From Haliclystus octoradiatus (taxonomy: Eukaryota > Cnidaria > Staurozoa > Stauromedusae > Haliclystidae), in the NCBI GenBank assembly GCA_916610825.1, contig OU744448.1:10030650-10094649 (forward strand): DNA of 64,000 bases, given 5' to 3'. Below, piece after piece: positions 38,174 through 64,000 of the stretch (within the stretch, counting starts at the first letter, position 1; every line of letters begins with the position of its first letter). Below the pieces are notes generated by a model. The model was not told the DNA's origin. It searched no databases and saw only the letters and a list, made by a program, of their open reading frames with translations. Made by a program: the position numbers and the translations under genes.

Positions 38174-38191
38174 TGGCGCAGTGATTTATTT
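38174..38191 (+). promoter_or_regulatory. Primer-binding site of the Gypsy element
   Basis: TGGCGCAGTGATTTATTT follows the 5' LTR directly. TGG complements the CCA end of a tRNA, as in most LTR retrotransposons. The tRNA was not identified. Confidence 0.75.
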
Positions 38192-38254
38192 ACCTTTTCG
38201 CGGAGATTAACATTACCGAATTCATTATTTACTCTTACCATTATATATATTACA

Positions 38255-40321: not shown

Positions 40322-41043
40322 TTGATTAATAATTTGAAATGGATCAATCCAGTAGTAGCATCAGTTGAAAAATTGGAAGAAGATGAAGTCAGTACTCTGG
40401 AACTGGAACGTAATCCCATCATAATAGAATCTGGTCAAATAGAACAAACCAGTATTAAACCTCAAGCAGCATGGGAATCTCTGTCTTCAAGACAAGATAC
40501 CAAGTCAAGCGGGACAGCGATAGACCTAGATGCAGCTGAAAACTTTATCAGGCATTTCAGCTTGGCAACAACAACAACTTTTGTAGTGTGGAATACTGCT
40601 AGAAGGGTTTTGGAAAAACAGGTATGACAATTAAACAACTGTAAAAATGCAAACAACAAAACTACTTTGGGAATGTCTTGTTACTTGTGAGAAATCATCT
40701 CAATTAAGGAATTTCTTACATCTCAGAACTATCTGATGTGAAAATTCATATTATGTACAACAATGACGTACCGTATATAGCTTTGAATCGGAAGGTGTAT
40801 GTCTGCCAGCATGGGAAATCACAGCCCAAACCAAAAGTTTGCAAAGTAAGTAAGCAGTCAGTCATATACAGATCCATCTCTGCAGCATACAAATTAAATA
40901 TGAAATACAGTAGGCTAGTAAGAAGACTACTTGCAAGGGATGAATCTCAAAAAGTTTTTTGTACTTTCCCAATTTTGCCACCTCTGTACAGCAACCACCT
41001 GTCTATTGCAGCCATGACAATGCTGTACCCATGTACCATGTGA
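40322..41043 (+). pseudogene. Transposase N-terminal relic in the nested transposon
   Basis: Two exon-like blocks. The first (to 40621) ends EKQ before a CAG|GTATGA donor. The second (about 40727-41043) has NDVPYIALNRKVYVCQHGKS and further Lys residues, resembling the Cys-containing DNA-binding domain (WRKY/GCM1-like, FAR1-like) that precedes MULE transposase cores. The exon junction is not in phase as read, so it is decayed. The family link is a judgement from the motif and the MULE-type ends. Confidence 0.45.
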
Positions 41044-41142
41044 CTTGATGTACTCATTGAATTATCCTTTAAAAGTGTGTTGTCTAAACAGGAAATGTCA
41101 AGGACCCTTCATGAGATTTATTCTAATAACATACTTGTAATC

Positions 41143-41845
41143 GTAATTCCTGCTACCATGGAATCCATAAACAGCTAGTTAATCAATATATTGAGCTAAA
41201 GGAACACTTTCGTCATTCTTTTAAAAATGGAAATAATGGAATGGCCTCTCTATTAACGGGACTTGGGGAATTTTTTATGAGAACAGCCCTTGAAAAAATC
41301 CTGAAACGGGCAAACGGCCCCTGAAAAAATTGGGAAACAAAACAACAACAAAATCTAAAAATGATCTCAATTTTCTGAAGGGCAACAAAGAATTGTAACT
41401 TTGAAAACTATGACCTCCAAACATTTATAACTGTACCATAGAATTTTATTTCAAATATTATATCTAGCTATTATTTCAAATACAAGTGAATATGAACAAA
41501 ACATATACATTAGTCGAATGATAATTTGTAGCAAGTGATGTATTTGAAACATGACACACTCCATTTAATAATGATCAAATATAAGCAGCAAATATTATAC
41601 AGTCAATAATCTTATAATCAATAGTTGTATACCATAAACTTAGAACAGACCCAACTAATGACACACATAATAATCTAGAATACACCATAGCGACATCTGG
41701 AGGCTACGCAGTTGACTTCTCCTGAAATTCGAAAATGTGCAACATTAATCTATCCACACTAACCAAGAATAATTTACATAAAAAATTGTCCCAACAAGGA
41801 TGTCGAGAGTGGATAAATAGAATAAGTAGAAACAACAGATAGCCT
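41143..41845 (-). repeat. Diverged third copy of the palindrome-1 arm
   Basis: Matches 20999-21704 in the same orientation at roughly 85% identity by eye (e.g. GCTACGCAGTTGAC and GGATGTCGAGAGTGGATAAA). It ends at the same terminus, AAGTAGAAACAAC at 41833-41845. This shows the arm is a dispersed repeat with a fixed end. Confidence 0.8.
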
Positions 41846-42204
41846 CCAGGGGTCATTTGAAAATGTACTGCTGCTTACAGGGAGGGCCAAATTTTGCTAG
41901 AAAGCTTGAATATAACACTATGTTAACAATGAAACAATCAATTGTCATTTGCAGATGTGAAGACCTGAATCTGAAGCTTTCCAGCGAGGTGTAAATTTGC
42001 TCAACTGCATTACAGGTATCAGAAATCCATTCAACATGAATCGCATACATGTATTATCGATGCATGAAAGGAAGGTACTACATTATCAAGTTGAATTTGT
42101 AACAATCTCTCACAGGAGTAACCATTTGGTCTGTTATGTTTCTTGTGACATGTGTGATGTGTAGAATGTACAGATCATTAACTTAGTTATGTCTTTTTTG
42201 ATAG

Positions 42205-42370
42205 CTAATTGAAATGGATGATGGTCGCCTCAATGACAACATCTTTAATGCATGCTAAAAGATGCTGCAAGATTGATACCAATCTGATAATGGCTTCCAA
42301 GACATACTTTTGCAAAGAAATATCCTTTAAACCAAAAAAAAATTGGGCAACAGCAACAACTTGGCATGGA
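42205..42370 (+). pseudogene. Ulp1/C48 protease relic in the nested transposon
   Basis: After the acceptor-like TTTTTTGATAG the + strand reads EMDDGRLNDNIFNA, then a stop, then KMLQD and DNGFQDILLQ, the N-terminal 'LND..I.AA..LL...F....GLQD' block of the Ulp1-like proteases found at 54578-53997 and 50640-50313. At least two stops interrupt it. The catalytic segment was not found downstream. Confidence 0.55.
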
Positions 42371-43288
42371 AGGAAAGTCAATAATAAAACTTAACGATAC
42401 ATTTCATGAAAAAATCCAGCGCTCTCTCTATAAATTCTGTCAGAAATTTTGAAAGAACTTGAAGTATGATTACAACCAAAATATGATGTTGTTCAATATC
42501 TAATGAAAAGTCTGATCTCATGTACTGTAGCGGGAAACAATAGGTTGCAGGAGTCAAATTTAATAAAACGTTTTGAGGGTGTATAAATGATAAAAGCATA
42601 AATGATGAATTAGGCCTACTTCTTCTTGCATTTAGTTTTATGTGAAATATCATAGCCTTCCGGTAATTGCTCTTATAAATGTGAATGTAAATGTGAATTT
42701 TCTGCTGAGGTTTGGCTTATGAATCATAAAAAATGTCAATTTTTATCCGCTTCTGGATGTAAATAGTGTAGGATGTAAATTCAATGTGAAATAATCAGCG
42801 GTCATCAATAAACCAGATTGCAGAGAAGGGTGATTGCACCCCTGAGAAGAAAGAGCGTTCCCTGGAAATGTTTTGGGGCAACAGAATTACGTTTCACTAA
42901 TAATTTGCAGACGATTGCTGGTGATATTTCGTTATTGGAGATTTCGGAAATTACATCACAAGCGTACAGTTGCGGGTACAAGGTGGAGGGGTACCAATCA
43001 TCACAGTAGGCCTACAGATGTATCTTTAAATCGTCCCTGAAAAGGTTTGGCACTGGAGGCACACGAAGAGTAACAAAAGCTCTACAATCTATCTAAAGCA
43101 ATTTAATCAGCAATTTTAAAGAATCTGTTGCCTTGCTGGCTCAAACCACAACAACAAAAGCAGAGACTAGTGAGAAGAGGGGGAAGTAGCCTGGCGTACA
43201 TCCTAGTTGCAAAGAATTCAGAAAACTTGGTTTTGCGCGGGGAATGCATTTATCTTTTAATAGAGTTTAAAACCAACTCCTAAAGATT

Positions 43289-43312
43289 GCGCGGGGAATG
43301 CATTCCCCGCGC
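43289..43312. repeat. 24-bp perfect palindrome
   Basis: The stretch is self-complementary: its left half GCGCGGGGAATG is followed by the exact reverse complement CATTCCCCGCGC. The left half plus CATT also occurs alone about 53 bp upstream (near 43236). It sits inside the nested transposon. Confidence 0.85.
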
Positions 43313-44270
43313 GGACCATTCTATTCAACCTGGGCGTACATGAAAGGTAGGCGGGTTATTTGAAAGTGTACTGCTGAATACAGGGAGGGTCCAGTCTGAC
43401 TCTGACTCTCTGAGTACTTCATGGATGGCCCTTAAACGTGTGATATTGTGTTATATTAAATTGGTTTTACTATTATATTTACGTAGTTCCCGAGAGTATT
43501 TCAGCAAAGTCCGAGGCAGATGTGTCTGTTAATGACTTTTTAAGAAGCAAAATTGATCTTAAGCTCAAATGTCTCTGCTCTTTGGAAAAATAATTAATTC
43601 AAACTTGAAGGCTCTGGATAAATGATGATGTATCATGTTCTTACGATGATGTTTTCTTAACAAAGCTTGTGAATTTCGCCTAACCCTTAGAAAATTATAA
43701 TAGGCCTATATGCTTGTTGTGTGAAGTGATGTGTGCGACCATAAAATCGCACAAACATCTTCGCAATATTACCCACATACAAATTAACTAACTAACTGAC
43801 TCAAAGGTATTGCTTATTTTGCTATTGAGGCAAAATGGGGAATTAGAATATGAAGAAATCAACGCCAATAACGAAGAAAAGAATCTCAACTCGCGCTAGG
43901 CTCATGTCAACTCGTCTCAGTTCGAATTCAGACAAACTCACTTGAATATTTTCACTTATCCATCTCATCTCAGTTAAATATATCTTCTTCATAAAAATAA
44001 ATACTTTGTTGCATATGAAGCTGTACTGATTCCATCATTTCAAACAATTTTACATTGCGTTTCCAACAATTTCACTCTTACAAAATCTGGAAACTGCACA
44101 GTTTAAACCGCCATCGCCATCATTAAAAGCTCAATATGAAGTTATGAACGTCAACTAAAACGCCAAGTAGCTTTACGCAGAAAACGCAGCCGCGTCGATA
44201 ACATTGAAAAAGTAGACTGGATACTAAATAGAGCTGACGCGAGTTGAATTTTCCGTTTACCCCCGTGAAA

Positions 44271-47258
44271 ACATCTCATGTAAAAATTCAAAATGTCGGC
44301 GAGGATTTACCGTTTCTTGATATTTGTGTTTACAAAGGAGAAAAGTATTTACAAACAGTTCAAGCTATATGCGATACCGGTGCACAACGTACAGTTGCTG
44401 GACCTGATTTTATTTCACAGCTGAAAATGGACATAGTTTCATTATTACCATCATCTAAAGATATATTTACTGCTATCAATAATAACCAACTTACACAATT
44501 GGGACAGGTTAGTGTGTATTTTAAACTTGCTGGTAGGGTAGTTCCCTGCAATGTCATTATATGTGATCAAATCGAAGGACTTTACCTCTCAATGCAAATG
44601 TGCAAAGATTTGAATATTATATCACAAAATTTTCCAGCTCCTTTAACACATCAAATCAATTCTATCAGTCATTCACCAAATAACTCATCTCCACTTATTT
44701 TCAAACATGATGAAAAGCAATGTTGGCTTGATTCTTTATCTACCAACCCATCTAATCAGCAAAAATCTGAAGATATCACAAAATTAAAAACTATTTATTC
44801 CAAAGTATTTCATTCTGATACCAGATTACAACCCATGAGTGGACCCCATGTAGGTGATACCATGAAAATTGAACTTAAACCTGATGCTGTTCCTTTCGCT
44901 GTCATGACAGCAAGAAAAATACCTTTTCCTCAGAGGGAGAAAGTTAAACTAGAATTAGATCGCCTGGAGAGTTTGGGTATTATTGCAGCTGTTGCAGATG
45001 AACCTGTCACTTGGTGTCACCCTTTGGTCATTGTTCCCAAATCTGACGGTGATGTTCGACTTTGTGTAGACCTCACCAAACTCAACAAGCAGGTAAATCG
45101 CACATTACACCCATCACCTACGCCTGCTGATGCCGTTGCTAGTATTGATCGTACTTCAAATATATTTACCCTGTTGGACGCTAAAAGTGGTTATTGGCAA
45201 ATGCCTCTAGACGAAGCTTCTCAACATTTAACCACCTTTATTACACCATGGCGACGCTACAAATTTTTGCGTGCCCCTATGGGGTTTATTTCAAGTGGGG
45301 ACTCTTATAATTTACGTATTGACCTAGCTCTAGAGGGTCTTTTACATGTTACTAAAATTGTTGATGATACACTTATTGATGCCGACTGTTATACCACCTT
45401 AATGTCTCGCACTTGTGATGTTTTAGAACGATTCGCAAAATATAATATTTCTTTAAATACGAAGAAGTGTGTATTTGCAGAAGAAAGTTTAAATTTTGTC
45501 GGTTACAAGATTTCACCTGGTAGTTATGCTGCTGATTCTAAAAAGCTTGACGCAATTTCCAAATTTCCTCAACCAACTAATCGCACTGAATTACGTTCCT
45601 TTCTTGGTCTTGTTAATCAACTTGGTATGTTTACGGCTGATTTAAGTGGTAAGCTAGCACCTTTCCGTGATTTATTAAAAACTTGTAATGAATTTTTATG
45701 GTTAGCAGATCATACTATAGCATTTGAAGCTACAAAACAATTATTACTTTCACCACCTGTATTATCCGGTTTTGATCCATCTTCACCTACTGTTCTTCAA
45801 ACCGATGCATCGAAAACTAAAGGACTTGGGTTTGTTCTACTTCAACAACAACAAGGTATGTGGAAGTTAATTCAATGTGGTTCCCGTTTTCTTCAACCCT
45901 GCGAAACACGTTATGCCATGGTTGAATTAGAAGCACTTGCAATTTTATGGGCCATTCGCAAATGTAAAGTTTATTTATCTGGTCTACCAGCATTCCAAGT
46001 TGTTACTGACCACAAACCACTTATACCTATATTTAATAACTATACACTTGATGCTATAGAGAACACTCGTTTACAATCATATAAATCAAAATTAAGTCAA
46101 TACCAATTTACTGTCACTTGGACTAAAGGCAAAGATCATGCTATTCCTGATGCATTATCACGTGCTCCGGTATGCGATCCCACACCTGATGATATTGAAG
46201 ATGATTCTCAATTTCCCACTGACCAGATCATTCGTATTGCTGCTTTACGTTTATCTCATGACGATTCTGAAGACAACACATCAATTACACGTGCACCTCT
46301 TGCTGATCCTATGATTGATCAATTACGTAACATTGCCCATACTGATACTCATTATCAACAATTAATTATTGCTATTCAACAGGACTTTCCTGAACCCATT
46401 ACACCTGCTGTTGGTTTATTTAGAAAAATTTGGCCAGAACTTAGTATTGATAATGGTCTCATCTTATTTGGTGATCGTCTTGTTATACCTCGTTCTTCTC
46501 GTTCTGATGTCATATCTCGTCTTCACGCATCTCATCAAGGTATAGAGCGAACAAAACGTCGTGCTCGTCAAGTTGTATACTGGCCTGGCATGAACAGCGA
46601 CTTAACTAATGCTGTCCAATCTTGTAAACAATGTGCTAAGTATCTTCCTAGTCTACAAAAGGAACCACTGATATCAGATCCATTACCTTCTAGAGTTTTT
46701 GAATCTGTCTCTACTGATTTATTTAGCTTGAATGGAAAACATTATTTAATATATGCAGATCGTTTATCTGGCTTTCCTTTTATTTCTGAATGGCGTGATG
46801 ACCCTTCTTCATCTCAAGTATTAGAAGTTATTAAACACCATTTTGTACAAACTGGTGTCCCATCACAACTTCGGTCGGACGGTGGTCCCCAATTTGCTGC
46901 CAAAGTATTTAATGATTTTTTAATTTCTTGGGGAGTTAATCGATCTCCTTCTTCTCCTCATTATCCTCAGAGTAATGGCCATGCTGAATCATCTGTAAAA
47001 TCTGTTAAAACATTGTTAGCTAAAGTTTCAAATGGAAATATTAAATCTGATGAATTTCTCCGAGGTTTACTAGAACTTCGTAATACTCCACGAGCTGAAG
47101 GTATTTCACCAGCACAGTGGGTTTATGGACATCCTTTACGTTCGTATGTTCCTGCTCATTTTAGATCATTTTCAAAAGACTGGCAATTAGCAGCAAAAAC
47201 TATTGATAAAAAATTAATCGACTTAGCCACGAAAAATAAAAAAATATTACGATTCTAA
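44271..47258 (+). CDS. pol: Gypsy Pol region: protease, reverse transcriptase, RNase H, integrase
   Basis: 995 uninterrupted codons after the nested insertion, in frame with gag. Aspartic protease ICDTGAQRTVAG; reverse transcriptase with LDAKSGYWQMPLDE and the catalytic KIVDDTLID (VDD); RNase H with LQTDASKTKGLGF and VVTDHKPL; integrase with the HHCC finger (HASHQG ... CKQCAKYL) and the DDE core: VSTDLFS, LRSDGGPQF, and the E in SNGHAESSVKSVK. The frame ends at 47256 in an A-rich run; the C-terminal part continues in another frame (next entry). Known role: replication by RNA intermediate and insertion of the cDNA. Confidence 0.95.
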   Translation, partial: TSHVKIQNVGEDLPFLDICVYKGEKYLQTVQAICDTGAQRTVAGPDFISQLKMDIVSLLPSSKDIFTAINNNQLTQLGQVSVYFKLAGRVVPCNVIICDQIEGLYLSMQMCKDLNIISQNFPAPLTHQINSISHSPNNSSPLIFKHDEKQCWLDSLSTNPSNQQKSEDITKLKTIYSKVFHSDTRLQPMSGPHVGDTMKIELKPDAVPFAVMTARKIPFPQREKVKLELDRLESLGIIAAVADEPVTWCHPLVIVPKSDGDVRLCVDLTKLNKQVNRTLHPSPTPADAVASIDRTSNIFTLLDAKSGYWQMPLDEASQHLTTFITPWRRYKFLRAPMGFISSGDSYNLRIDLALEGLLHVTKIVDDTLIDADCYTTLMSRTCDVLERFAKYNISLNTKKCVFAEESLNFVGYKISPGSYAADSKKLDAISKFPQPTNRTELRSFLGLVNQLGMFTADLSGKLAPFRDLLKTCNEFLWLADHTIAFEATKQLLLSPPVLSGFDPSSPTVLQTDASKTKGLGFVLLQQQQGMWKLIQCGSRFLQPCETRYAMVELEALAILWAIRKCKVYLSGLPAFQVVTDHKPLIPIFNNYTLDAIENTRLQSYKSKLSQYQFTVTWTKGKDHAIPDALSRAPVCDPTPDDIEDDSQFPTDQIIRIAALRLSHDDSEDNTSITRAPLADPMIDQLRNIAHTDTHYQQLIIAIQQDFPEPITPAVGLFRKIWPELSIDNGLILFGDRLVIPRSSRSDVISRLHASHQGIERTKRRARQVVYWPGMNSDLTNAVQSCKQCAKYLPSLQKEPLISDPLPSRVFESVSTDLFSLNGKHYLIYADRLSGFPFISEWRDDPSSSQVLEVIKHHFVQTGVPSQLRSDGGPQFAAKVFNDFLISWGVNRSPSSPHYPQSNGHAESSVKSVKTLLAKVSNGNIKSDEFLRGLLELRNTPRAEGISPAQWVYGHPLRSYVPAHFRSFSKDWQLAAKTIDKKLIDLATKNKKILRF

Positions 47259-47559
47259 TGCGCATTCATTATCACCTCTACCTATTGGATCTACTGTTAT
47301 TTTACAAAGTCCAATTACTAAACGCTGGGATGAAACTGGCATTGTTATTACTGCTAACCCACATGATTATGTTATTCGTTTACCTTCTGGCAAAGTCAAA
47401 TGGCGCAATCGCCGATATATTCGTAAATTTACCATTCCAGATGATGACGATATCAATACTCATGTCGATAATCCAAATAATACTGATAATACAGATGTCA
47501 CACTTCAGTTAAGACGTAGTACTCGTGCCCGTCAAACACCCAAACGATATTCTACTTAA
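47225..47559 (+). pseudogene. Gypsy integrase C-terminus, shifted frame
   Basis: Directly after the A-run at 47232-47246 another frame continues the protein with LPIGSTVILQSPITKRWDET and VKWRNRRYIRKF and stops at 47557. It is the GPY/F-like and tail part of integrase. A single-base change in the A-run accounts for the break, so either one mutation or a sequencing error separates it from pol. Confidence 0.8.
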
Positions 47560-47697
47560 TTTTATTTACTATTTAGACTATTTACTATTTACGATTTAAT
47601 TTACATTCAAGTCACAATTCCATTCATTATTATTATTTTTTTTTTTTTAGCTCATAATTAATTCATTTAGTTATTTCATTGACATTTTATTCGCTCC

Positions 47698-47709
47698 AAA
47701 AAGGGGAGA
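47698..47709 (+). promoter_or_regulatory. Polypurine tract of the Gypsy element
   Basis: AAAAAGGGGAGA lies directly before the 3' LTR. In this class of element it primes second-strand DNA synthesis. Confidence 0.85.
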
Positions 47710-47951
47710 TGTTGTATTCCCTATAATTTAATATTAGACTCTAGATTAATGAGTAAGCCAATATATTCCCAAGAGGCAACCCTAACTTCAATATGATAAT
47801 CAGTTGGTGTTTAGCTCAGTAGATGGTTGGTTCTACTGTAGCAACCCTATTTAGTATTTACATTATTATTATCATTTATAAGTTTGAATTTATTGAGTGT
47901 TATCTTTGTTGTCTTTACTTGCGTTACACAACACTTTACACACTCACAACA
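47710..47951 (+). repeat. Gypsy 3' LTR, 242 bp
   Basis: TGTTGTATTCCC to CACAACA, the same length as the 5' LTR and no difference seen on reading. Followed by the target duplication ATGGC (47952-47956). Confidence 0.96.
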
Positions 47952-48969
47952 ATGGCTCTTTCTTTTTGCAATTTTAAACTGCTCGATAGCTTCTTGTCTG
48001 AAACAGTTTGCCAGATGAGACCTCATCACACCAACTTCAAATCTTAATTTTCACTCTGAGAAATTCCAACCCTCGCAAATTGCAACAGCGTTTGCAATTG
48101 CAAAAATGCCTCCATCGCGAGCATTCTCTTGTTGCTGAACCGGCGGGATGGAGATATTGAATACTTTTTGTTGCGGGTGACTTTTGCAAAGCGTTATTTT
48201 CAAGCGCGATGTCAACGGAGATTTGTAACTGAAAAGAAGAAATCAGGAATAAATTATCAGTCAGAGCAACAACATCTTATTAGGGCTCCTGAGTCCTTAT
48301 ATATGAGAGCTAATTTTGAATCGAGTGTTTCTTATCATTGTGAGACCAAATGGAAAAATTATAGTATATATTGTAATATGTCTACACCTTGAAATATCAA
48401 TAATAAAAAAATGACAAGCAGTTAAATTTTCATTGGAATTTCAAACGAGAGCAATAATATTTATATGTCAGAGTGTACGTTCGGGGCTCGTGCAAATACA
48501 TATAAGCTTAGTGCCATCACGCATAATTTTACCTGGAGCTTCGAAGATTACTATCTAGTAAGAAGAACTTGTCATCTCCCGGCAATCTTGCAACCGTAAC
48601 CCAATGATCAATGCCTGTCGGCATTAGCTGCACACACAGATTGAATTTTTCTGAGTCATTTGAAAATTCTTTAAGTTGGACAGACTCCAAGCCATCGGCA
48701 TTGTAACTTCGATAGATCATCATCGATGCGGCGTCCACAATGGTACTCGACAACGATTCGCCAGACTCAAGATCTCTCATATCCTTTTCAGATAGATCAT
48801 GGCACTCTGAAGCAAATAAATGAAATTGTGGTTAACTGAGAATATCTCCAGCCGTACTTCCAACATTTAGACAATGCATGTATTATTTATTCACTTACCT
48901 TCCTTTGTTACAGTAGGAACTGTTTCCTCGTAGTTACTCGCATTTATAGCAACCATTGTATCATCTAAA
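47952..48969 (-). pseudogene. MULE copy C, Ulp1/C48 protease exons, catalytic Cys replaced
   Basis: Three - strand exons. 48969-48900: DTMVAINASNYEETVPTVTK with a GTAAG donor. 48811-48543: CHDLSEKDMRDL, then YRSYNADGLESVQL, HWVTVARL (catalytic His) and FFLLDSNL (Asp). The last, from about 48190 down to the Gypsy insertion: PPVQQQENARDGGIFAIANA and MRSHLANCFRQEAIEQFKIA. Aligned with copy A (VQQQKDTNSCGLFALAYA), the nucleophile Cys is Gly here (codon GGA). A TGA follows at NFSE. The gene is therefore dead as a protease, and the Gypsy element separates it from its PHD finger at 37672-37926. Confidence 0.75.
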
Positions 48970-49989: not shown

Positions 49990-50660
49990 AAATGTCATTT
50001 AGGCAGCCAGAGCAGAACCATGTCCTCAATTTTTTCAGTGGGATGTCTAAAGCCTAGAATTTCTCATGGAACCATTTCCTACAGCCTCTGCACTCTATCA
50101 TAGTTTCATCGTACTATTGAGGTATGCGACATTTACAATAGATCTTTATGCTATGACGCCATTGAAGACTTCTGTTAACAGTCTTTTGTTGTTTCGATTT
50201 TGGAAATGGAAGCATTTCTCTATTGTCTCTATTTCTCTAACGTTGATAAATCTTTGCTTTGATCTTTCGATCGCAGCAATGTCAATTTCCAGCCTACATG
50301 GCATTGTTCCCCTTAATGAGTCATATATATATATAGGTATACCAATCTATCGTATGGTGGCCTAACCATGCAGACCCAATGCGCTCTCACAGGATCATGC
50401 AAAATCTGCACATAGGGTTTTGATTGATCAATGTCAGTCTTGAATAATAGCCTCTGGGACAATGAAACACATTCTAGTCCAGCAACATGAGGATGCTTCA
50501 TTCTCAGAAGTTTCATTGCTGCCGTCATGTGGTTGTCATTCAGCCAATTCGTTTTTGATTGAAGGTCAATCAAATCTCTCTTTTCAAGCGACAGTTCAAT
50601 TATCCAACATTTTTGCGATAGTGTTTTTATGTCAGATTTTCTCATAAAAGCTGAAATAAA
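49990..50660 (-). pseudogene. MULE copy B: Ulp1 protease lacking its Cys block, plus PHD finger
   Basis: - strand from the TTTCAG acceptor near 50650: SLEKRDLIDLQSKTNWLNDN, then HVAGLECVSL, HDPVRAHWVCMVRPPYDRLV (catalytic His), then across a (TA)n indel DSLRGTMPCRL (Asp). The VQQQ...CG block is absent: the reading passes directly to MLPFPKSKQQ, the region that in copy A follows the Cys block by about 50 residues. A PHD finger follows (YCKCRIPQ, stop, YDETMIECRGCRKWFHEKF, stop, TWFCSGCLND) at about 50140-49997, with one zinc ligand (Cys after H) changed to Phe. Dead copy. Confidence 0.72.
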
Positions 50661-51475: not shown

Positions 51476-53830
51476 CTAAAAATAACAAAAGGGTAATTTT
51501 AAACAAAAGATTCACAATATGGGAGGAATGAGAGTCAATTTGTTGTAAGCCGGAATATCTCATAAAAGATCAGTAGACCCCATTTCGAAATAGAATTTAC
51601 GGGTCGTGGCTAGATCAGGGGTAACTCAAGGACATTGTGACGTCAACAGACAATTATACTATCATTCAGGATTTTTCAGTCTTGTACGATAAAGCTGAAG
51701 TCTCGGGCATCGTTTCATAATTTTTAAATATGGCGGAAAGTTTTGGATTAGACCTGTGCCACATGCCTCTGTACTTCACTTGACCTGCGGCTGCTGCGTA
51801 TAGGGGACATGTAAAAAATAAGGTCAAAAAGTGATGCACTCATTTCAGAAATATGAAATGACCAATCACAGCCAAGCATCTGTGACGTATCTTGGATCTA
51901 TGCAGTGATTGGTCCAATTACTTAATTTATGAAATTATCTCGTGACGTGACAACTTACAACTCCTTCAAGAACAAAATATTATTCAAACGTATTTTCAAA
52001 GCTCCAAGCAGAGGTTTTGAGCTCAATCCTATTTTCTTTTTTATATATCAACATGCTTCTCTTGGGTATTTAATTCGTTTTATCTGGAGATGTGCCTGCT
52101 TTATAAAGTTTTTAAACTGCCAAATATTGTTAAGCCGTTTAATACGCTGGCTCGAATGCAACTTGGATGTGTTTTCTTGTAGTTCAAACCAAGGTTTAAG
52201 GTTTTTAAACTTGATTTTATATTTATAAAATATATCAACATGCTTTTATTGCGTGTTACGATTGTTTTATCTGGAGATGTGCCTTCTGAATGCATAATCG
52301 ATTGATGTCGAACTGTAGGCCTAACACGTGCAACTTGGAAGAAAACGCGGAATGCCCTAACAAATAATAATTTGCTCATATTTAAACATTCATCACAGCA
52401 ATTGTGAAGATGACATACAAGTTTAAACTTTGATTACTTGTATGAGTTGAAAACAGCTGGTAAACTGGTATTAAACGGTAGATTATCAGCATGCAAATAT
52501 TGCAATTTTCCGTGAATGTGGCTGACACACTTTTCATTAATAGCGGCATAACATTGGACTTCATTACGGATATTTTTATCATTAGTTGATAGAATGGATT
52601 ACAGATAATACTTTTCTATGATATGAATGATTTGAATACATCTACTTTACTCTATTGTTAAATGTTAGTAATGTGAATGTCAGAAATATTTCCTTTGTGT
52701 GGTAACAAGAACAACATTAATATATTAATTCGGCTCAACGTTGTTTTTTCTGTAATACTCTGTAGAAGTTGTTCTTCATTCCGTTTCTCAATTCATATCT
52801 GCAATATTAATTCACTTCGATCAAAATGTCTAGGATTTGCAAAGCTACAAAATTACGTTTTGCTTTAAAATTTGAAATTGCTTTTACTGTAACTGTGTGA
52901 TGTCGATAAATGTCCTTCCGTCTTGACACCTATTGTTTTCGTTACTGTTGGCCCACCGCATATACTTGATAGCAGGCGCTTGTGGAGCGCATGCGTATTA
53001 GGGTCAGAATTTTCTCTGCGCATCACTTTTTGACCTAGCCTCATTCCATCACGGCCCTCATTTCCGCGCGGCGCTCCAGTGAGGGCCTAATAAAATTTAA
53101 GGTTGAAAAGTGTACCAGAAACCAAAAATATGGTGTGCCCAATCACAGCGCACCTTGGTGTCATGTGAGTTACAGCCAGGTGTTGGTTGGTCGGCCCATC
53201 GAAGAACAATAAAACGAGGTGTGAACAGAAATTGATATTTGCTTAATTCAGCTATTTTGAATTTCAACATTTTGTAAACAAACTGTCGAAGAAAACTAAA
53301 AACGTCAAGTTCACGGTATTACTTTGGATCAAATTGGAGCAACAGAATTATAAATATCTCGAAGGACTGTATGAACATTATGAAGGCCTTTTGTGGGCGT
53401 AGAATACAAAATAAAGGAGAAAACATCATGTTTTGACGGAGCGATGGAGCTAGGCTAGTTTTGGATTGCTGTTTCTACGACTAGAAATTAATATTTGTCA
53501 AAGACTAGTTAGACAAGCCTATTGTTACGTTAAACCAAATCATCGATCTATTACGTAAAAATGGAAAGAAGTTGAAAACGATAAGAGTGAGATACATTAT
53601 ATTGTCAGTTCAGTTATGGAATCCATCTAATTTTGCAATTATTCAATTAATGGCTGTGCTACTGCTCAGTATGACATGGTGAAGGTGGGTAAGGTAAGGT
53701 TATAAAACAAATCGTTCAATGAGGAACTATATATATAATGATTTATGAATAGTATACAGGAGGTAATGTTCCAAACTGTATTTTAGTAGAATAATTTTAT
53801 AGAATTTTTACAGAAGTTAAACGAACGAAG
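51476..53830. other. Region upstream of the ST13 exon without recognised exons
   Basis: A ~180-bp-spaced direct repeat (ATATATCAACATGCTT ... TTTATCTGGAGATGTGCC at 52044-52100 and 52226-52280) is present. GC-richer patches at 51830-51930 and 53030-53230 share CCAATCACAGC. No coding exon recognised, although ST13 exons could be expected here. Confidence 0.45.
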
Positions 53831-54040
53831 TTATTCGAAGATCAGCTTGTGAGCTTGTTCAGCATCATTTCTAGCTTCTTTACAATCTTTGCACAGCCAA
53901 TATGCTGTTGCTGCTGTCGCTGTGTCATAGTCATGGAATGAAGGGTGAAAGTATATACTTTGCAAATCTTACATTCCTTCATTTTTTCCTCACCATTCAA
54001 CAAAAAAAGCTTGGGCATTCTGCATTTGCAGTAAACAGAA
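53831..54040 (-). pseudogene. PHD-like zinc finger at the C-terminus of MULE copy A
   Basis: Read across a frameshift, the - strand gives YCKCRMP, KMKECKICKV, YFHPSFHDYD and YWLCKDCKEA, i.e. the Cys pairs and His of a PHD finger. Copies B and C have the same C.CRIP/ECRRC patterns. PHD fingers usually read histone H3 tails, so chromatin targeting of the product is a reasonable inference. Confidence 0.55.
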
Positions 54041-54578
54041 ATTGCAAAAAGTCTGTTTTTTTTGCGTGGATGCTAGTCCTTTCACTGAACGGGAAGGGCA
54101 TCATTGCGTCATTCTCGAGGCAGTGTTTGAGATGAATGCGCATCTCTTTTGGCTTAAAGTTCATTTGTTTTAACGGCAATTTAAAGCATTCTGCTGTTGC
54201 ATATGCCAAGGCAAATAGGCCACAGCTATTTGTATCTTTTTGCTGTTGAACATCCATCAAAGCAATAAATAGTTCTGTGCTACTGCAATAGCTTAAAGAA
54301 GACAGTAGACTTTGAGTATCTATGTCGAGATTATCGGAGTAATTACTGTCGTACAATTTTAACTTGTGATGCTCTTCCATTGTACTTGCAGTAACCCAAT
54401 GATTCGAATTTCTGTTAAAAACTTGAACAAAGTTATTGATTGGTCGAGCTGGTAATTGCTCTGGGATCATCAGAATTGGATCTTGCAGTCCTTAAATCTC
54501 AGGAAATTGGCATTTCAGCAACCAAAGACCGGCGGCTACAATTGTATCATTCAGCCATTCAGATTGTGAAGATAAAAT
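53997..54578 (-). pseudogene. Ulp1-like C48 cysteine protease domain of MULE copy A
   Basis: Exon 54578-53990. SQSEWLNDTIVAAGLWLL, then an in-frame TAA (54494-54492), GLQDPILMIPEQLPARPINN, HWVTASTMEEH (His), LKLYDSN (Asp), DVQQQKDTNSCGLFALAYAT (Gln and nucleophile Cys), MRIHLKHCLENDAMMPFPFS. The family cleaves SUMO/ubiquitin-like tags or precursors. Apart from the one stop codon the domain is complete and the triad is intact. Confidence 0.85.
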
Positions 54579-55256
54579 CTGCAAGAGAAATATATTTACT
54601 TCATTCGACATGCTTAGCATCAGGAATTTCAGGATTACAGTTTTCAAGGGTGAGTGAGGATAGATCACAATGTTAATTGATTCACATAGGCCTACCATTT
54701 TATCTCTGTTTGAAAGGTCAACTCCATTAATTCCTCCAACCTTTAACCATTGATCATTATTTACAGAAAAGCTGCTTTTTTCTTCATCTGACACATTAAT
54801 TACAAATATCTAAAAAAAAATACAAAAACATTACTGAAACAGAAAATTTTGAAGGTATTGTGAAATATTACAATTTTTAACCAAATAAATCAGACTAAGC
54901 TATCAGACTTTTCTTGAAATAATTTCACTAAGATCTTCTTGTAATAATAATCAGACCTTCTTGGATATGTTCATTTTGTTCCCTTTTTATTTACTGAATG
55001 ATTTTATATTGATTCTATTTTACCTTATTAAATTGGTATGTGAAAGCGTAGCTTACAGTTCAAACCTACCTGCTGGCTTTCTACTGGTTTCTCCTTGATT
55101 TCAACTATTAGCGTCTGTGCATCATCATTATATGTTTCCTGTTTTGTTTTCTGTTTTTTCCACCCTATGTACAGTAAAATGATTAAACAAAGTAAATTAT
55201 CTAACATATGAATTTGTTGAAGTGTTACATAATAAGCTAATTACTGAATTGTGGCA

Positions 55257-56108
55257 GTTTACAAAACGGAGTGGATAATGTTCCGGCAGCCGGAATCCTG
55301 AGCAACCGGAAAACGGAGTGCTAAAGATAATGTTCCGTGCATCTCTTGTGCATGTGTAATGCGTTGTTTTCGTTTCTCTCACATTTGTTCAAGCAAGATG
55401 CAATGGCAAAGGTCGGTCCTGTTCCTCTATCACGTTAATAACAATTCTGTTCATCAATTTAATGATAGAATATAAAATAATTTAACTTAAAGTGCTGGAG
55501 GTTAAAAACACTTTATACGAGGGATTCATGACGCTAGATGCAACACCAAACCCGCAAACCGTTCTTCCAAACTTATAGGAAAAGTGAACGAACTCGGCTT
55601 CGGTTTTGAGTTTCAGAATTTTGACTTTTGGTATACGACAAAATCAGAATTGGTAGCCCGCATATAGCATCAGTTACAGAAAAAGGAAATGACTAATAAG
55701 TAATTATCCCATATTATTAGCCTACAAATTAACAAAGTAAATTGTTTTGAAATATTGTTAGGCTACATAAACATTTTCTGAAATCTTTCAAGAGCGCCAA
55801 ATAATTATCACAACACTCAAACATTGGAAACGCTGGGTCGCATTGCTGAAAAGCTTCAATAAATCAAACACACAATAAAATGATTGATGCATAGATCTGT
55901 TGAATATCGCTTTGTTTTATATTTATTCCAAACAGTCGATCCAATATACGGTGTAGGTGCTATAAACTTTTTACAAACTATTTAAGATTTAATTTGGATC
56001 AATCGACACAGCCATGTTTATTATCTACATACGCATGCGCAAAGGACAACTTTATCTTTTGAGGACAGCTTTCCGGCAGCCAGAACAATATCCACTGCGT
56101 TTACAAAA
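55257..56108. mobile_element. 832-bp non-autonomous element with 10-bp duplication in an intron of MULE copy A
   Basis: Element 55267-56098: the left end CGGAGTGGATAATGTTCCGG and the right end (reverse complement GCAGTGGATATTGTTCTGG) match over ~28 bp with four mismatches, both running into GCCGGAA. GTTTACAAAA flanks it at 55257-55266 and 56099-56108. The 9-10 bp duplication again points to MULE-type mobilisation. The left end carries a second, internal copy of CGGAGTG...ATAATGTTCCG. No open frame. Confidence 0.78.
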
Positions 56109-59100
56109 AATATGCTTTTAGTTATAATGTTTAGACCTACAAGCCTTCTGTATGTACTGTTTTTCTCTTGATTGCTGTTGTTTTCTGTCTGACTGTATTT
56201 ACATTTGACGTTTTCCCACTTCCTAGTAAAACCTCTCCTTCCTCAGATATACCAATGGTTGAGTGGGAACGTTCCATGTCTGCAACAACACCTGAGTAAT
56301 CAAAATAAAATGTACAGATCATTATGTCTGCATTAATACATACACATATTTAGGTACTACACAATACTGAAACTTGCTATTAATAATGATTCCTTTTATT
56401 TAGATGCTCGTACAATTTGTTCATACATCAGATCTCTTGAATATAATCTGTTCAGACTGATGTCAGAAGCATTACCAACAAAGCATTCCTCTACATGATG
56501 AGTATGTTTAGTTGAATTACTTCAATGCAAATTAACCCATTGGTTAGGCTACTCACTAGGCTTGCTTGTGACATCACTAATAATAACACTCACATTGGCA
56601 CGTAATTGGCTCTTGCAGGTTGTGGATTGTGTTTACCAATGATTGTCAATATTCAGGCTAAATGGACTGTTATTTGCATAGGCCCCTACTGTGTTCATAG
56701 TTCAGTCAAACCTGTCTATAACGGCCATTTGGTCACATTGGAAAGGCTATAATAATGGCAGTTATACAAGAGCTGTAAAATTACAAAATATATGAAGAAA
56801 AACATTTGGTTGTTGATACAGTGTTATGCACTTTTCATTCATCAAATCCTTGCATGCCTTATACGAAATGTGTACTTTGCATGTCAACAGGTGAAACGAC
56901 ACTTCTTATACACGTAGGTTTGACTTTACTTTACTTTGAATTGCGCAATTCTAAACATTATTCCATTGAAATACTGAAGAAAGAAAAAAGCATCAATTGA
57001 ATTACAATTATACACACCATAGCGTTTGGCTTTGTTTTTCTTTCTTGCTTTCAGTTGACGATGTATAGGTGCATTTCTTGATTTCGATCTCTTTGCTTGC
57101 TTAGCTTTCTTAGGTGAGCCATCTTCGTCTTTTAATGGCAATTTGTTGTCTGTTGGTTGTTGGAATCTGAATAATTGAAAAAAATGCTCAAGTTAATCAT
57201 CTGGAATGAACGTTATTTCTTGTCGATAACATCTCAAATATATTTACTAACCTTCAGGACTTCATTGAGCATGATGTGCAGCCTACCAAAACACTGTGGA
57301 TCTGTAACCACATATAATGTATCCATCACAGATTTAACTGTTGAAACACATTAATTACGATTAGAAAGCTGAAGTGGTTGTGTAGATGGTTTTTGTTCAT
57401 AGATGATGCCCTCCAAATCCAAGATTAGACCGTTGTTGTCTATATCATCAGATAAATCAATTGACAGATCAGTGGATGAATCATAGTTGGCCATAGTTTG
57501 TTAACTGCCATTGCTCAGCAGATACACAAGGGGATTGCACAGATGTGGACAGCTGAACAACGGAAGAAGAAAGAGAACTACTTTCCAAGATTTTTCTCTC
57601 TTCAGCATTGAATACTAATTCATCAAGCCTGAAATATGGATAATTCAAAAACTTTTCACCCAAAGACTCCCATTTTTTCTGATGAAAACTCGCAACAGCA
57701 CATAAATGCTTGCACAGGCTTCTATTTCTTGAGAAGTCCACACATTCACATGTTGGGAGTTCATTATCATCTCCTAGCCAGACATGATATTGCTTCCTTG
57801 AATCTTCTTCACTTTGGATTGTAAAATGTCGATCGCCAATACGCGTTATACTTTTTAAATCCAGAGTTTTTGCCCCTTCAAGTCTGATGGTAACGTGTTG
57901 CACAAGATCTTGTGGCCGATTGTGAAAAAATGTGGGTACGATTGAAGGGTACTGTCGGTACAATGATGTTGCCTGCATGTTTAATGTCTTGTACCTATGT
58001 TGCAATGAATACATAATTTGTTAAACAAGTATTAACAATAACCTGAGAAAAACAGTTCAAGAGTTCATGAACGTAGATTGCCTCAAATTTTCATGAACTG
58101 TTCATGAACTGTCTGTGAATTCCTGAACTGTTTTTCACAGGGGTTATAACAGAAATATTATATTATAATACAAAATCATCCGAAACAAGCTAAACTAAGA
58201 TTGTATTTAGCAGAACATACTTTTTGTAACTGTTTGGTAGGAAAACGGTGACAATTGCTTTCATCAGCTCTTTCAAGGTTCCACTCTTCTTGTTCTCTAG
58301 CGCTTTTGATTTCAATAAACCGTTTTGCCTTTCAATACCGTTATTGGTATACACTGATAAAACAAGCGATTTCTGCCGTTGGAACTTCACCCATTTCTAA
58401 AGCAGAGAAATGAAATAGCTCAGGCATAATTAATAGTATTGAATGTTATTATGTTAACTTATTCAATCAACTTAATCATCTCTGTCGCTAGTGTGCAATA
58501 TACATTTGAAAAAAAAATTGAAATTACCTCTCCTAATATGTTTAGTTTAACTATAGCCTATAGCCTAGCCTGAAATATATGTTTACAGTTCAACCTTTGG
58601 TTTTACCGGTTTTGCAGAGGATAAGTGCAAATTCTTAGAAATAATTTATTTCAAATTCACCTTAACATGTGGTTTTCAGTAGTTTGTAAAGTAATTTTGC
58701 AGTTTCTCTGACTGCTTCCATATGGCACTTTCTTTAAATATTGCCAAATTGTGTGTATATTGCTTTTCATCTAAACTATCAGCAATACTATTAAGATAGG
58801 TTAGTATTGTATCACAATCAGCAACCACTCCATGTTCATGCTTGGATAACCATTTACTCCAGGCCTTTTTACGGTGGAAATCACACAGGTGAATGTATAA
58901 GCCTTGAAATTAATAATGCAAACCAATATTAATGTCACACATGAATACGTACTGATGATATCAGAATAGTTAGTGTACAGTTATTAAAATACTTACCGGG
59001 AAAACAACGCTCGAGTGCATTTATTTCAGCCAATGAAAAGTCAACAATAAAATTTGTTGGTTTCCAATTTGGATTTTCTCGCTAATAAGCTTCAGACCTT

Positions 59101-60679
59101 CTGCAATTGATTCTTCATCTTCGTTCTCCAGAATTAAAACTGCAACATCTGCATAACAGACATTTGTTTTTACGCAAACAAAAAAAAGAGGGACATCATA
59201 CCTGTAAAATAAATGAGAAATTGATTTCATTGAGTGGTGTTCCAAGGAATGCACTCTAATCATATTATGTGAAAATTGGATATTTATTATTGCATGAATA
59301 TTGGAAAGAGAGCGTCAACTTCTATTTCTTAAATTTACGCATCTCAATTGCTTGTGTTTATTTAGGAAATTTGGTTTGAAGAAATCTTTAGATAGCTTGA
59401 TATGCATGCATTTTCACAATTTGCAATTTTAAGCAAACCAAAACTTTATCAATATACATACCGGTATCAAAATTTGTTTGCTTTTTACTATCATGCCATC
59501 AAGCTTATAAAGGTTGAATAGCATATTTTCACAAATATTTTACACAAGCTTAATGAATAATGATTTCATTCAATTTTAATACAAGCATGTAAAGCATATG
59601 TAACTTTCTAATAGATGCCTGGTTAATTCACATTTAGTTATGTTACATCTCTGATGGTATTTTCACATTACCTGCAAACCCTGTATGTTGCATCAAGAAG
59701 ACATAAATCTTGGCCATAACGAAGCATCAAAAGGCGCATCCATTCTGATTGGTATATATAGCAGTAAAAATCTCTCTTCATCTGATGAAGCCTGAAGTAG
59801 AATGTTAAATAATTGTTCAGTATTTGACATCTTCTAATTTCCCCTGTGAATACGAATTCATGGACTTTGTTAACCATCAGTTCATTAACCTTGTAAATAT
59901 CAGTTTATGATCATTGTAGACAGATCATGGCATTAACTTAACCGCTTATGAAATTTTGCTTGAAAGTATATCAAGTTTGATTGGCAAGTTTTTATTAAAT
60001 TTTGGTTGACGGTTCATGGAAACAGGCCATTTAAGATTTATTGACTTCATGAACAATTCATGACTTCATGACAATTTTGCTAGGAAAAAATAGCCTATTG
60101 GCTATATTTCTATTTTTACCCGACAGTGTGCAACTAGTCCAGTCAATCTAAAATTTGACCAAGGACAAATTGCAACACAAGCTTTTTTTATGGAGTATAG
60201 GGTAGAATTTTATGCTGAACAACATATCAAAAATCGAGAAAAATCGAAGTGGCGGAAGGTACTCAATTTGATAGAAATTAGTTACGGTCGGCATGAAAGC
60301 GAGGCTGTGTCATTTAGGGCTAAAAACTGAGCGATATTTCAAAAAATAAGAGAATGTACGCAATCAAGAAGAACACACTCAGTGACACAATATAATTACA
60401 GAAAAAAAATCATAAGTTGATCATTATAACAGAAAAAACCATAACGAGGCTAAAAATTATATTAGGGAATTTACTGTACTTTTACTGTACTATCACCAAT
60501 AACAAATGCGCATTAAAATAGGCTAGGCATAAGAACACGCATTAGCTCCTTGCAATTAGAGGGAGATCGATGTACCTAACGATTATATTAATTAACTACC
60601 AGGCAAATATTAAAATATTAAATTCTATTCAAATCGGCAAAATCAAAATAAAGCATATATAAATCAAGTAGACCATCAC

Positions 60680-61985
60680 GTACAAAACAAGGATGCGTCT
60701 AATCACCCTCAGTAGTGAAATGGGTATGATCCAAGAGCCAATACCAATAATAGGAACATTCTTGACATCATAAAATCATATCTAGGTTAGATAGAATGTA
60801 TATATAAATCCATCCCATAGGCATCACAGATACATCTAACCCCCTCAGTAGTATAATAGGTGTGGTCCAAGAGTCCAATATCAAGAACAGGAACATTTCT
60901 GACATCATAAAATCATATCTAGGTTGCATAGAATATATATATAAATCAAGTAGACCATTCCATATGCATATTAGATACATCTTATCACCCTGAGTAGTAT
61001 AATAGGTGTGGTCCAAGAGTCCAATACCAATAACAGGAACATTCCTGACATCATAAAATCATATCTAGGTTAGATAGAACGTATATATAAATTAAGTAGA
61101 CCATCCCATAGGAATCACAGATACATCTAACCCCCTCAATAGTGTAATAGGTGTGGTCCAAGAGTCCAATATCAAGAACAGGAACCTTTCTGACATCATA
61201 AAATCCTATCTAGGTTGTATAGAATATAAATATAAATCGAGTAGACTATCCCATATGCATATTAGATACATCTAATCACCCTCAGTAGTATAATAGGTGA
61301 GGTCCAAGAGTCCAATATCAAGAACAGGAACATTTCTGACATCATAAAATCCTATCTAGGTTGTATAGAATATAAATATAAATCGAGTAGACCATCCCAT
61401 AGGCATGACAGGTACATCTAATCACCCTCAGTAGTATAATAGGTGAGGTCCAAGAGTCCAATACAAATAACAGGAACATTTCTGACATCATATAATCATA
61501 TCTAGGTTGCATAGAATATATATATATAAATCGAGTAGACCATCCCATACGCATTATAGATACATCTAATCACCCTCAGTAGTATAATAGGTGTGGTCCA
61601 AGAGTCCAATATCAAGAACAGGAACATTTCTGACATCATAAAATCCTATCTAGGTTGTATAGAATATAAATATAAATCGAGTAGACAATCCCATATGCAT
61701 ATTAGATACATCTTATCACCCTCAGTAGTATAATAGGTGTGGTCCAAGATTCCAATATCAAGAACAGGAACATTTCTGACATCATAAAATGATATCTACG
61801 TTACATAGAATGTATATATAATTCAAGTAAACCATCCCATAGGCATTACAGGTACATCTTATATATATATATATATATATAAATCAAGTAGACCATCTCA
61901 TAGGCATTATAGTTACATCTCATCACCCTCAGTAGTATAATAGGTGTGGTCCAAGAGTCCATAACTTTCACCATCATAAACTTTA
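60680..61985. repeat. 146-bp satellite array, about 8-9 copies
   Basis: Units share GACATCATAAAATCATATCT, AAGTAGACCATCCCATAGGC, CACCCTCAGTAGTATAATAG and GTGTGGTCCAAGAGTCCAAT. The GACATCATA motif lies at 60773, 60901, 61047, 61192, 61338, 61484, 61632 and 61778, mostly 145-148 bp apart; the first unit is shorter. Two alternating unit types differ in ATACCAATAACAGG versus ATATCAAGAACAGG. Open frames on the - strand follow the repeat and are not genes. Confidence 0.93.
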
Positions 61986-63510
61986 TCTATGATTATAAAA
62001 TAATATAGATGTTGAATACAATGGATGTATATTTCTAATAAAACCATTCAAAATAGATTGAAGAGACATTCAACCATTGTTGCGATAATTAACATGTGTG
62101 GTCTAGGGGTCCACAGAAGATAACAAGAACATCCTCAATTGCTCAAAAGATATCTAGGTTGCACGATACCAGACATGCAATGTTTGTAAATTAGGGGTTG
62201 AGCAACAGTTGGGGCCTTTTACGGCTCATCAGGACGTGTTATTGCCCTAAATTTTGTCTGTGAAATCGTGAATAGGCATTCTTATCTACGTTATTGCGTT
62301 ATCGATGATTTTTGCGTTATATAAAAACAAAAACATGAAGTTTTACAGAATATTTCAGATAAAATCATAGCAAAATTCCCTATTTGGGACGCCATAATTC
62401 AAAAAGTTCTCAAGGGGGTGAATCTCCAGACCCCATTTTAAGACTTCAACCCTGTTTTCCTATTTTTATCATGCAAAATTTTTATTATTTGCAAACACCT
62501 TGTTCACCATTCAAACTTTGCATGTTCAGCTAAATATTAATAATACGATTTAAAAGCAGATAGGTCTGAATTGAATTAATTTCAAGAAAGCTCTTTCGTT
62601 TGAATGCATGAAATTTGAAACTTTCATTATGCTATGCGTGAAATTGTACAGATTGAGTACGTAAATACGTTATTGCCATGGCATATAGGGGGCCAACAGT
62701 TGTGTGCACTATTATACGGGGTGCATTAATATGCTGCCAAACTATGTCAGAAATAAAGATAATAGGCCAACAAATGTTATTGGTCCTGATTTGGATCACT
62801 CAGCAGAATTGATGCTATCATGTGTAATACTGTTATAGCAGAGCCCATAGGTATTGGCAATTGTACATGCATTTACATCCAAATATCTGGGAGTCTTGCA
62901 TCCTGTCTAAATCACTATGTCTTAGCAAACAACTGAGAACTGAATCCTTATGATCATTTTTATTTTCACATCATGAATTCATGATCATGCTACATATCGA
63001 ACAAACATTAGAATAATTGAATATAATTCATTAAAAATATGTTTCACTTACTTTTAATTAAAATACTGACCTTGATTTTGGAAAATAGAAAGCCAATACA
63101 ATAAGTGTTAGGCCCTATTGAATATCTACAGATTTTTGCTTTGAACCTTGTCCTTGATAATGCCTGTCATCCTTCGTTTTCCTCTGCAACATAACACTGG
63201 GAGACTTTTCGAACCGATAACATTCCATTATGAATTAATTCGTGAGAGAGTTTCTTCGAATCAAATATCTTTGAGTACCAAAATTAGGAGGAAAGTGTAC
63301 CATTTCACCATTAAACCATAAAAAATCATACGCAAACCTGAATGATACGCGAACGATGCCTACCATCTTGTTGTATTGTCTTTCGATCAAAATTTGACAG
63401 TTTCCGAAAACATGTCGCGCTCAGCCTGTGCGCAGACGTTTAGATGGAGGCATAATGGCGTTTTAGAAAGGGTTAATAATTTGTGACTTTAAATGCAAAT
63501 AAAGTAATGT
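61986..63510. other. Interior of the AAC-flanked element right of the satellite
   Basis: AT-rich, no coding potential recognised. A (TA)n tract at about 61860-61880 belongs to the last satellite units. Confidence 0.45.
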
Positions 63511-64000
63511 TCCGCCACCTCGATTTTTCTCGATTTTCAGTATGTTGTTAAGCGTTAAATTCTGTTCTAGAATCTGTAAAAAAAGCTTGTGTTGCAATTT
63601 GTCCTGGGTTCCGTGTTTTTTCGATCTAGATTGACTGGACTAAACCTCATTTTCTTCTCTGTCCCACTCGTTGCATAGCTTTACCACATTTTCTTGATCA
63701 TCATGAGAATCCAATCCATAAAAGCGCAATCTGTTCAAGATATTTCGAATATCTTTGGGCCGGGGATAGTAGCGTCGACGCATCTCAGAAGGTTGGTCCT
63801 GCCCGTGGAAGAGCACATTATTTACATACTCTTTTTTAAACTTTTTTCAATTTGACTAAGTGCGGATATTGCTTTTATAAAGCTGCTCTATCTTCTCCAC
63901 AATTTCAGGACAGATTGCCTCTCGTAGTTCAGCAACCTGCATATTTATTGAATTTAGAACTTAAACAGATATATATATATATATATATATAATAATAATG

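Follow-up and report, generated by a model that had tools for sequence, protein, structure and literature searches.

A decayed Mutator-like transposon of Haliclystus octoradiatus and its relatives, whose predicted protein joins CARF, MULE transposase, SWIM, Ulp1 and PHD domains

We have found that positions 53831-64000 of a 64,000-nucleotide stretch of the staurozoan Haliclystus octoradiatus (assembly GCA_916610825.1, contig OU744448.1, positions 10,030,650 to 10,094,649 of the forward strand; hereafter the window) very probably hold the greater part of copy A, a decayed member of a family of Mutator-like DNA transposons. In the better-preserved copies of this family the gene encodes, from N- to C-terminus, a CARF/ALS2CR8 domain, a ZSWIM1/3-type DDE transposase domain of Mutator-like elements (MULEs), a SWIM finger, then a basic linker, a Ulp1 protease and a PHD finger. 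The domains from CARF to PHD are predicted to be made, most likely, as one spliced protein. A first-pass annotation of this DNA had proposed that an animal MULE unites transposase, SWIM finger, Ulp1 and PHD in a single gene with many introns, and this proposal is borne out by related copies that share terminal inverted repeats (TIRs) and by 28 loci of the genome at which transposase and protease are paired.

Copy A lies on the minus strand (Table 1). When searched with Pfam as one read-through protein, with an X placed at each break, it contains the MULE DDE transposase domain (PF10551, 1.8e-10), the ZSWIM1-3 RNaseH-like domain (PF21056, 1.8e-9), the SWIM finger (PF04434, 4.1e-5) and an ALS2CR8 (CARF) domain (PF15299) that falls slightly under the curated cut-off; the Gypsy-type integrase that is a trait of Ginger1 transposons is not there, no integrase family being among the Pfam matches up to an E-value of 10, and the enzyme is a MULE instead. 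Pfam gives the C48 protease only a weak match (0.001 on the exon that holds it and 0.33 on the whole read-through), but a profile made from 11 relatives in other animals scores it at 2.3e-32. The first-pass annotation had placed the motifs correctly (LLDATY, VDFSLAEINALE and TNNGIERQN in exons 59791-58221, SWIM at 57994-57252 and Ulp1 at 54809-53831) and had read a complete protease with His, Asp, Gln and Cys, all four of which are present; the two splice pairs that it singled out, 55070/54809 and 57252/57166, are both consistent with GT-AG sites, and its count of at least ten introns is a fair one at the level of a predicted gene model. The exons do lie on one strand with the domains in the order that it gave, but they do not read through, since frameshifts or stops interrupt the CARF, transposase, linker, Ulp1 and PHD parts. 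Similarly, the PHD finger is at the C-terminus as described but is not intact, one Cys ligand being missing and the finger being split by a frameshift, and a complete PHD is found only in relatives. The N-terminal CARF/ALS2CR8 domain and the 3' end at 51602 were absent from the earlier account.

Copy A is a dead element, a pseudogene. Its frame changes in the CARF exon, T1, T2, the linker, before the PHD and inside the PHD, and stops stand in T3, the linker and Ulp1. We rejected the idea that these breaks merely reflect mis-drawn exons because the compared breaks fall in frames that are open in a relative, the C6 copy. The alignment of copy A with two copies of its family, C6 and C7, covers 63982-63643, 60134-53457 and 51749-51602, and the gaps correspond to two inserts that both relatives lack: one sits after the CARF exon and holds an array of about 8 copies of a 146-bp minisatellite, and the other precedes the 3' end of the copy. 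The 100-nt inverted repeats at 60158 and 63609 were also considered as the termini of copy A and were rejected, as they flank the first of these inserts. Because the C6 and C7 DNA matches copy A at 96-98.6%, the 3' end can be fixed at 51602. Similarity to the relatives stops at 63982, leaving the 5' end missing. We rejected the possibility that this end lies just beyond the window, since the 20 kb to the right gave no profile match at 1e-3 and, in the nearer 10 kb, the best hit of a lenient tblastn search (E-value 0.003) fell in the Ulp1 region instead of the N-terminus.

Further evidence comes from other copies, which the first-pass annotation had proposed to look for and which were found as A-family, D-type and F-family loci. 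The genome was searched as a 261.9-Mb assembly of 33 contigs, in which the window is C4:10030650-10094649, and the search scored only the best candidates, so that the locus counts given here are lower bounds. The copy A transposase has at least 10 further loci at about 69-91% amino-acid identity, two of which, C6 and C7, were compared over their whole length. The C7 copy is 12956 bp long, with TIRs and a target duplication matching at 8/9 positions, and the C6 copy is 9707 bp long, with TIRs and a candidate target duplication that is not adjacent to them (offset 7 bp); the TIRs of both are about 110 bp. The compared exon frames of the C6 copy are open save for one stop in the PHD, and its reading phase agrees across eight of the nine junctions from T1 to U2. 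The C7 copy is more broken, with stops in T1 and Ulp1, part of L3 missing, and frame changes in the CARF exon, before the PHD and in the PHD. The 26-nt terminus of the family occurs at 305 places genome-wide (144 + 161, at most 2 mismatches; reversed-pattern control 0), and seven measured pairs of such termini span 391-402 bp, a length like that of miniature inverted-repeat transposable elements.

Two further families carry the same arrangement. The F family has seven loci at which the step from transposase to Ulp1 is constant at 3016-3020 nt, and in its C4 copy the CARF end and DDE lie in an open frame of 308 aa, SWIM in one of 382 aa and Ulp1-PHD in one of 314 aa; the nine domain stretches of this copy (four of CARF, two of DDE, and SWIM, Ulp1 and PHD) are stop-free with the exception of one TAG at a splice-acceptor edge, and its 5' terminus was not found. 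The F-family C7 copy, 99.1-99.4% identical to the C4 copy at both ends, where the two were compared, has TIRs and a 9/9 target duplication, AATTCGTTA. The MULE domain of this family scores 1.7e-10 (PF10551) and its SWIM finger 0.04, under the Pfam cut-off, or 6e-39 with a relatives' profile of the whole SWIM region. The third family is represented in the window by element D, a derivative with a perfect 9/9 target duplication that carries only scraps of CARF (40759-40854) and Ulp1 (42223-42324). Its 22-nt terminus occurs at 241 places (124 + 117, at most 2 mismatches; control 0), and perfect target duplications of 9 bp, the usual length in Mutator-like elements (range 8-11 bp), flank 16 of the 20 D-type TIR pairs examined, as judged by script; those of element D itself and of the A-family and F copies were judged by eye. 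A profile scan of 15 of these 20 elements (L015-L029) found CARF and Ulp1 scraps at most in 14 and, in L020 (8307 bp, 9/9 target duplication), CARF, MULE, SWIM, Ulp1 and PHD in that order. The first-pass annotation had hoped for an intact copy with TIRs and 9-bp duplications: L020 and the F-family C7 copy provide the ends, and we do not call L020 intact because its transposase frames seem shifted in two places. In all three families (A, D-type L020 and F) the five domains are ordered between inverted repeats, and the point on which that annotation had staked its reading, whether the protease-PHD part is ever enclosed by the inverted repeats of the transposase, is thus answered in its favour by TIRs that enclose both parts.

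We also asked how often protease and transposase travel together. All 132 matches of the transposase search, in 60 clusters, were used, and on the Ulp1 side 47 of 288 rows, many places being listed twice and D-type scraps, families of long open reading frames and weak rows being left out. In 28 of the 60 clusters a Ulp1 match follows the transposase on its own strand within 10 kb, at distances of 1.4-7.0 kb. Splitting the clusters by transposase identity sets apart 19 distant MULEs (identity at most 30%), which are without Ulp1, and leaves 41 clusters, among which the same 28 are paired; the other 13 were counted as Ulp1-less after their full match tables had been read by eye. A MULE relic that had come to lie by chance next to an unrelated Ulp1-PHD relic would fit the finding, in this very window, of two Ulp1-PHD relics without a nearby transposase (relics B and C, Table 1) and the presence of Ulp1 and PHD-like fingers in other multi-copy frames of the genome. 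Such a coincidence is refuted by an order and strand repeated at 28 loci and by the TIRs shared in three families, and we give it practically no credence.

The same composition extends to other animals. A search that scored the 8000 candidates with the most words in common found at least 36 matching predicted proteins, with Ulp1 in 14 and PHD in 12 of the 36 by our own profiles, in whose building 11 of the 36 had served. Ulp1 and PHD occur together in proteins of amphioxus, Hydra and one sea urchin, and in four single predicted proteins (P0001, P0007, P0010 and P0021) both stand C-terminal to the transposase. Most Ulp1 carriers share one Ulp1 type with PHD; some, from an amphioxus, a sea urchin and a mollusc, have a distinct, SENP-like Ulp1. 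A scallop protein (P0012, Argopecten irradians) has at residues 899-1091 a UCH/USP domain (1.3e-15) in the C-terminal place of Ulp1, and the C-terminal stretch of P0014 resembles that of P0012, yet has no UCH match. Eight fish proteins of the CARF-MULE type (P0004, P0011, P0015, P0018, P0019, P0024, P0025 and P0035) gave no Ulp1 or PHD match by profile; two of them, P0019 and P0024, bear the same gene name in two species and are possible host genes. In trees, the Ulp1 of P0006 groups with those of one sea urchin and one mollusc (98/97) and its transposase with amphioxus and fish (98/97), a conflict behind which a gene-model error is possible. The transposase of copy A likewise groups with amphioxus and fish (98/96) and its Ulp1 with P0013 (89/98), the transposase of which is placed elsewhere (91/86); we draw no conclusion from this because all branches are long.

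Several observations weigh against the view that these domains form one gene of a mobile element. The reading phase of the C6 copy disagrees at the L2-L3 junction, and a plain join of its exons gave no single open frame; the copy in the window lacks its 5' end and hence shows no target duplication; and matching target duplications are missing in 4 of the 20 D-type TIR pairs. C48 scores lie near or below the Pfam cut-off in several copies, and 22 of the 36 homologues have no Ulp1 match. In the genome, 13 of the 41 related loci are without Ulp1, 7 of them belonging to a single subfamily that is sister to A; of the 47 Ulp1 rows, 17, relic C included, have no transposase cluster in reach. Together with the 28 paired loci, these last figures indicate that the Ulp1 module is usual, not universal, and is also found apart. 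We considered in addition that the gene might belong to the host, as a transposase with Ulp1 and PHD that has been domesticated; its many introns, its single-protein homologues across animals and a fish cluster (P0004) that represents 28 member sequences might suggest this. For the A, D and F families it is refuted by the TIRs and 9-bp target duplications that flank this gene, and the ten further A-family loci, the seven F loci with their constant internal spacing, and the hundreds of termini and short derivatives also make it highly improbable. A decayed member of a transposon family remains our reading of copy A.

The protease-PHD part is under purifying selection. Seven coding stretches were compared. 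Each of the 19 pairs between families has a lower proportion of nonsynonymous (pN 0.32-0.49) than of synonymous differences (pS 0.73-0.86, synonymous change being saturated), and dN/dS, calculated from few changes, is 0.41 and 0.54 in the two within-family pairs. The His, Asp, Gln and Cys do not vary among the six aligned proteases, and the eight zinc ligands of the PHD finger (C4-H-C3) are complete in the F-family C4 copy and legible in C6 beside one stop. Compared by sequence with solved structures, the PHD is closest to PHF2, PHF8 and Dido1 (1.2e-8 to 2.2e-7). In PHD fingers of that kind, the histone-reading PHF2/PHF8/BPTF type, a Trp forms the methyl-lysine cage. At the corresponding position, before F/Y-H, six of the seven PHDs read from the genome (A, C, D/L020, F, G and H) have another residue, which is Y in A-family C6, S in L020 (and in the homologue P0013), I in F, E in G, H in H and D in relic C; the Trp is kept in relic B and in P0001, P0007 and P0022.

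It is possible to imagine how such a protein might work. CARF, a zinc-binding DNA-binding domain, and the SWIM finger may bind the inverted repeats, and the DDE core would cut and rejoin DNA; the Ulp1 protease could strip SUMO, or a tag akin to it, either from the transposase itself or from proteins of host silencing or repair close to the insertion, and the PHD finger perhaps brings Ulp1 to those proteins. SUMO removal and chromatin targeting by the element, as the first-pass annotation suggested, are inferences. We note that the element could be real and its Ulp1-like domain act instead on a target other than SUMO, such as NEDD8 or ubiquitin, with the PHD a structural zinc finger only: profile matches include SENP1, SENP8 and other ULP-type enzymes such as OtDUB, the scallop homologue has a ubiquitin protease in the same place, and most of the PHDs lack the cage Trp. 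The best protease match by sequence is SENP1 (2.7e-7), although overall similarity does not settle specificity, and we consider this alternative rather unlikely while taking it seriously.

More broadly, and tentatively, since we judge the idea to fall somewhat short of an even chance, animal CARF-MULEs may be a widespread class in which the C-terminus of the transposase is an exchangeable deconjugase slot, the constant need being to strip SUMO or ubiquitin from factors at ends or breaks. If this were so, vertebrate CARF would be the domesticated DNA-binding part of such a transposase. Through the CARF/ALS2CR8 domain these transposons are connected with a family of vertebrate transcription factors, and the seven F-family loci are candidates for testing why Ulp1 or OTU proteases are found in transposons as unrelated as Mutator and Ginger1.

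The window also contains older and younger insertions. The broken relic B gave no transposase beside it. The Ulp1 and PHD of relic C are separated by a Gypsy long terminal repeat (LTR) retrotransposon that in turn holds element D, so that relic C is older than the Gypsy insertion and element D younger. Between relics B and C lies a near-perfect 110-bp hairpin (49192-49301; 54-nt arms, 91%), perhaps a tiny foldback element, and beside the relic C PHD is a 95-bp tandem repeat of 6.7 copies (36696-37329). A dispersed repeat, about 77% alike, occurs at 41137-41838 (inside element D), 17646-18362 and 20991-21704, and a B3GNT-like gene at 31894-32820 has 35 matches at 40-52% identity, including Hydra, Hydractinia and Rhopilema, which makes a medusozoan cnidarian the likely host. 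Elsewhere in the genome, long open frames with Ulp1 at L055 (C11:3271000-3274999, 917 aa, a frame found at eleven loci) and L056 (C1:20386000-20389499, 547 aa) contain a region that by eye resembles a YqaJ-type nuclease, followed by PHD-like fingers and Ulp1, and may belong to a further type of mobile element using the Ulp1/PHD module.

Table 1. Features of the window described in the text
Feature	Position	Strand	Evidence
Copy A, whole recognisable element (A family), 5' end missing	51602..63982	-	96-98.6% DNA identity to C6/C7 copies
3' TIR of copy A, GGTCGTGGCTAGATC...	51602..51708	-	matches ~107-110-bp TIRs of C6/C7
Exon, C-terminal part of CARF/ALS2CR8 domain, frameshifted	63645..63954	-	PF15299 1.7e-5; own profile 9e-24
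Transposase exon T1, first Asp (LLDATY), frameshifted	59672..59791	-	
Transposase exon T2, second Asp (VDFSLAEINALE), frameshifted	58997..59201	-	
Transposase exon T3, holds TGA stop	58661..58902	-	
Transposase exon T4, Glu (TNNGIERQN)	58221..58396	-	
SWIM finger exon and linker; linker frameshifted, with TAA	57252..57994	-	SWIM 5.2e-6
Lysine-rich linker exon L1	57018..57166	-	
Linker exon L2, 3' boundary uncertain	56141..56291	-	
Linker exon L3	55070..55164	-	
Exon U1, protease region begins	54696..54809	-	
Exon U2: Ulp1/C48 (His, Asp, Gln, Cys; internal TAA), then degenerate frameshifted PHD, terminal stop	53831..54578	-	
Foreign insert in copy A, 3.5 kb, ~100-nt inverted ends, TA duplication	60135..63642	.	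missing from C6/C7
Second insert in copy A, 1.7 kb, short direct repeat at ends	51750..53456	.	missing from C6/C7
Relic B: Ulp1 (N half) and PHD, broken	50003..50640	-	Pfam PHD 1.1e-3; own profile Ulp1 4e-12, PHD 4e-7
Relic C Ulp1, catalytic Cys replaced by Gly	47949..48831	-	C48 4.2e-3; own profile 1.4e-17
Relic C PHD, separated from its Ulp1 by Gypsy element	37760..37873	-	
Gypsy LTR retrotransposon inside relic C	37932..47951	+	LTRs 242/242 identical; 5-bp duplication
Element D, MULE derivative with TIRs, first 59 nt identical in inverted orientation	39446..44261	+	
Left 9-bp target duplication of D, CCCGTGAAA	39437..39445	.	
Right 9-bp target duplication of D, CCCGTGAAA	44262..44270	.	

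Vertebrate CARF/ALS2CR8 and ZSWIM1/3 are host genes, and they have PF15299 and PF21056 in common with the N-terminal and catalytic parts of the elements. In plants, Hoen et al. are said to have described in 2006 Kaonashi-type ULP MULEs that likewise combine a MULE with a Ulp1-like protease; these belong to a plant lineage, and we liken them to the present animal elements by description and not by sequence. The open-licence literature in PubMed Central yielded no link between CARF and transposons and no report of a USP deubiquitinase in the C-terminal slot, as in the scallop, and on Ulp1 in animal Mutators only one paper was found there (PMC2836005). A term search of PMC10027918, PMC13359780 and PMC6431247 did not find Ulp1, and in the main text of PMC6446971 'ulp' and 'protease' are absent and both mentions of PHD concern Rehavkus. 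The one paper found reports Ulp1 encoded in Mutator transposons of hydra and lancelet (PMC2836005, Bao et al. 2010), citing Repbase Reports of 2008/2009 by Bao and Jurka for Ulp1-bearing MuDR elements of Hydra and Branchiostoma, and the legend of its Figure 1e describes an alignment of the Ulp1 and PHD domains that Ginger1 and Mutator transposases carry. The combination, which the first-pass annotation did not know as described, had thus already been reported in outline, and because Ulp1 in animal Mutators had been reported the novelty of our findings is modest, being a fuller anatomy of a known combination. The Hydra and Branchiostoma elements are likewise MULE transposases with Ulp1, and related predicted proteins of like composition occur in Hydra and amphioxus; the CARF domain of the present elements is unmentioned in the passages of PMC2836005 on the hydra and lancelet Mutators. 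Lastly, Ginger1 as presented in that paper is similar in having Ulp1 C-terminal to a DDE enzyme, with a PHD in Ginger1-9_HM and with introns, whereas Ginger1 has a Gypsy-integrase-type enzyme and 4-bp duplications and the present elements have a MULE enzyme and 9-bp duplications.

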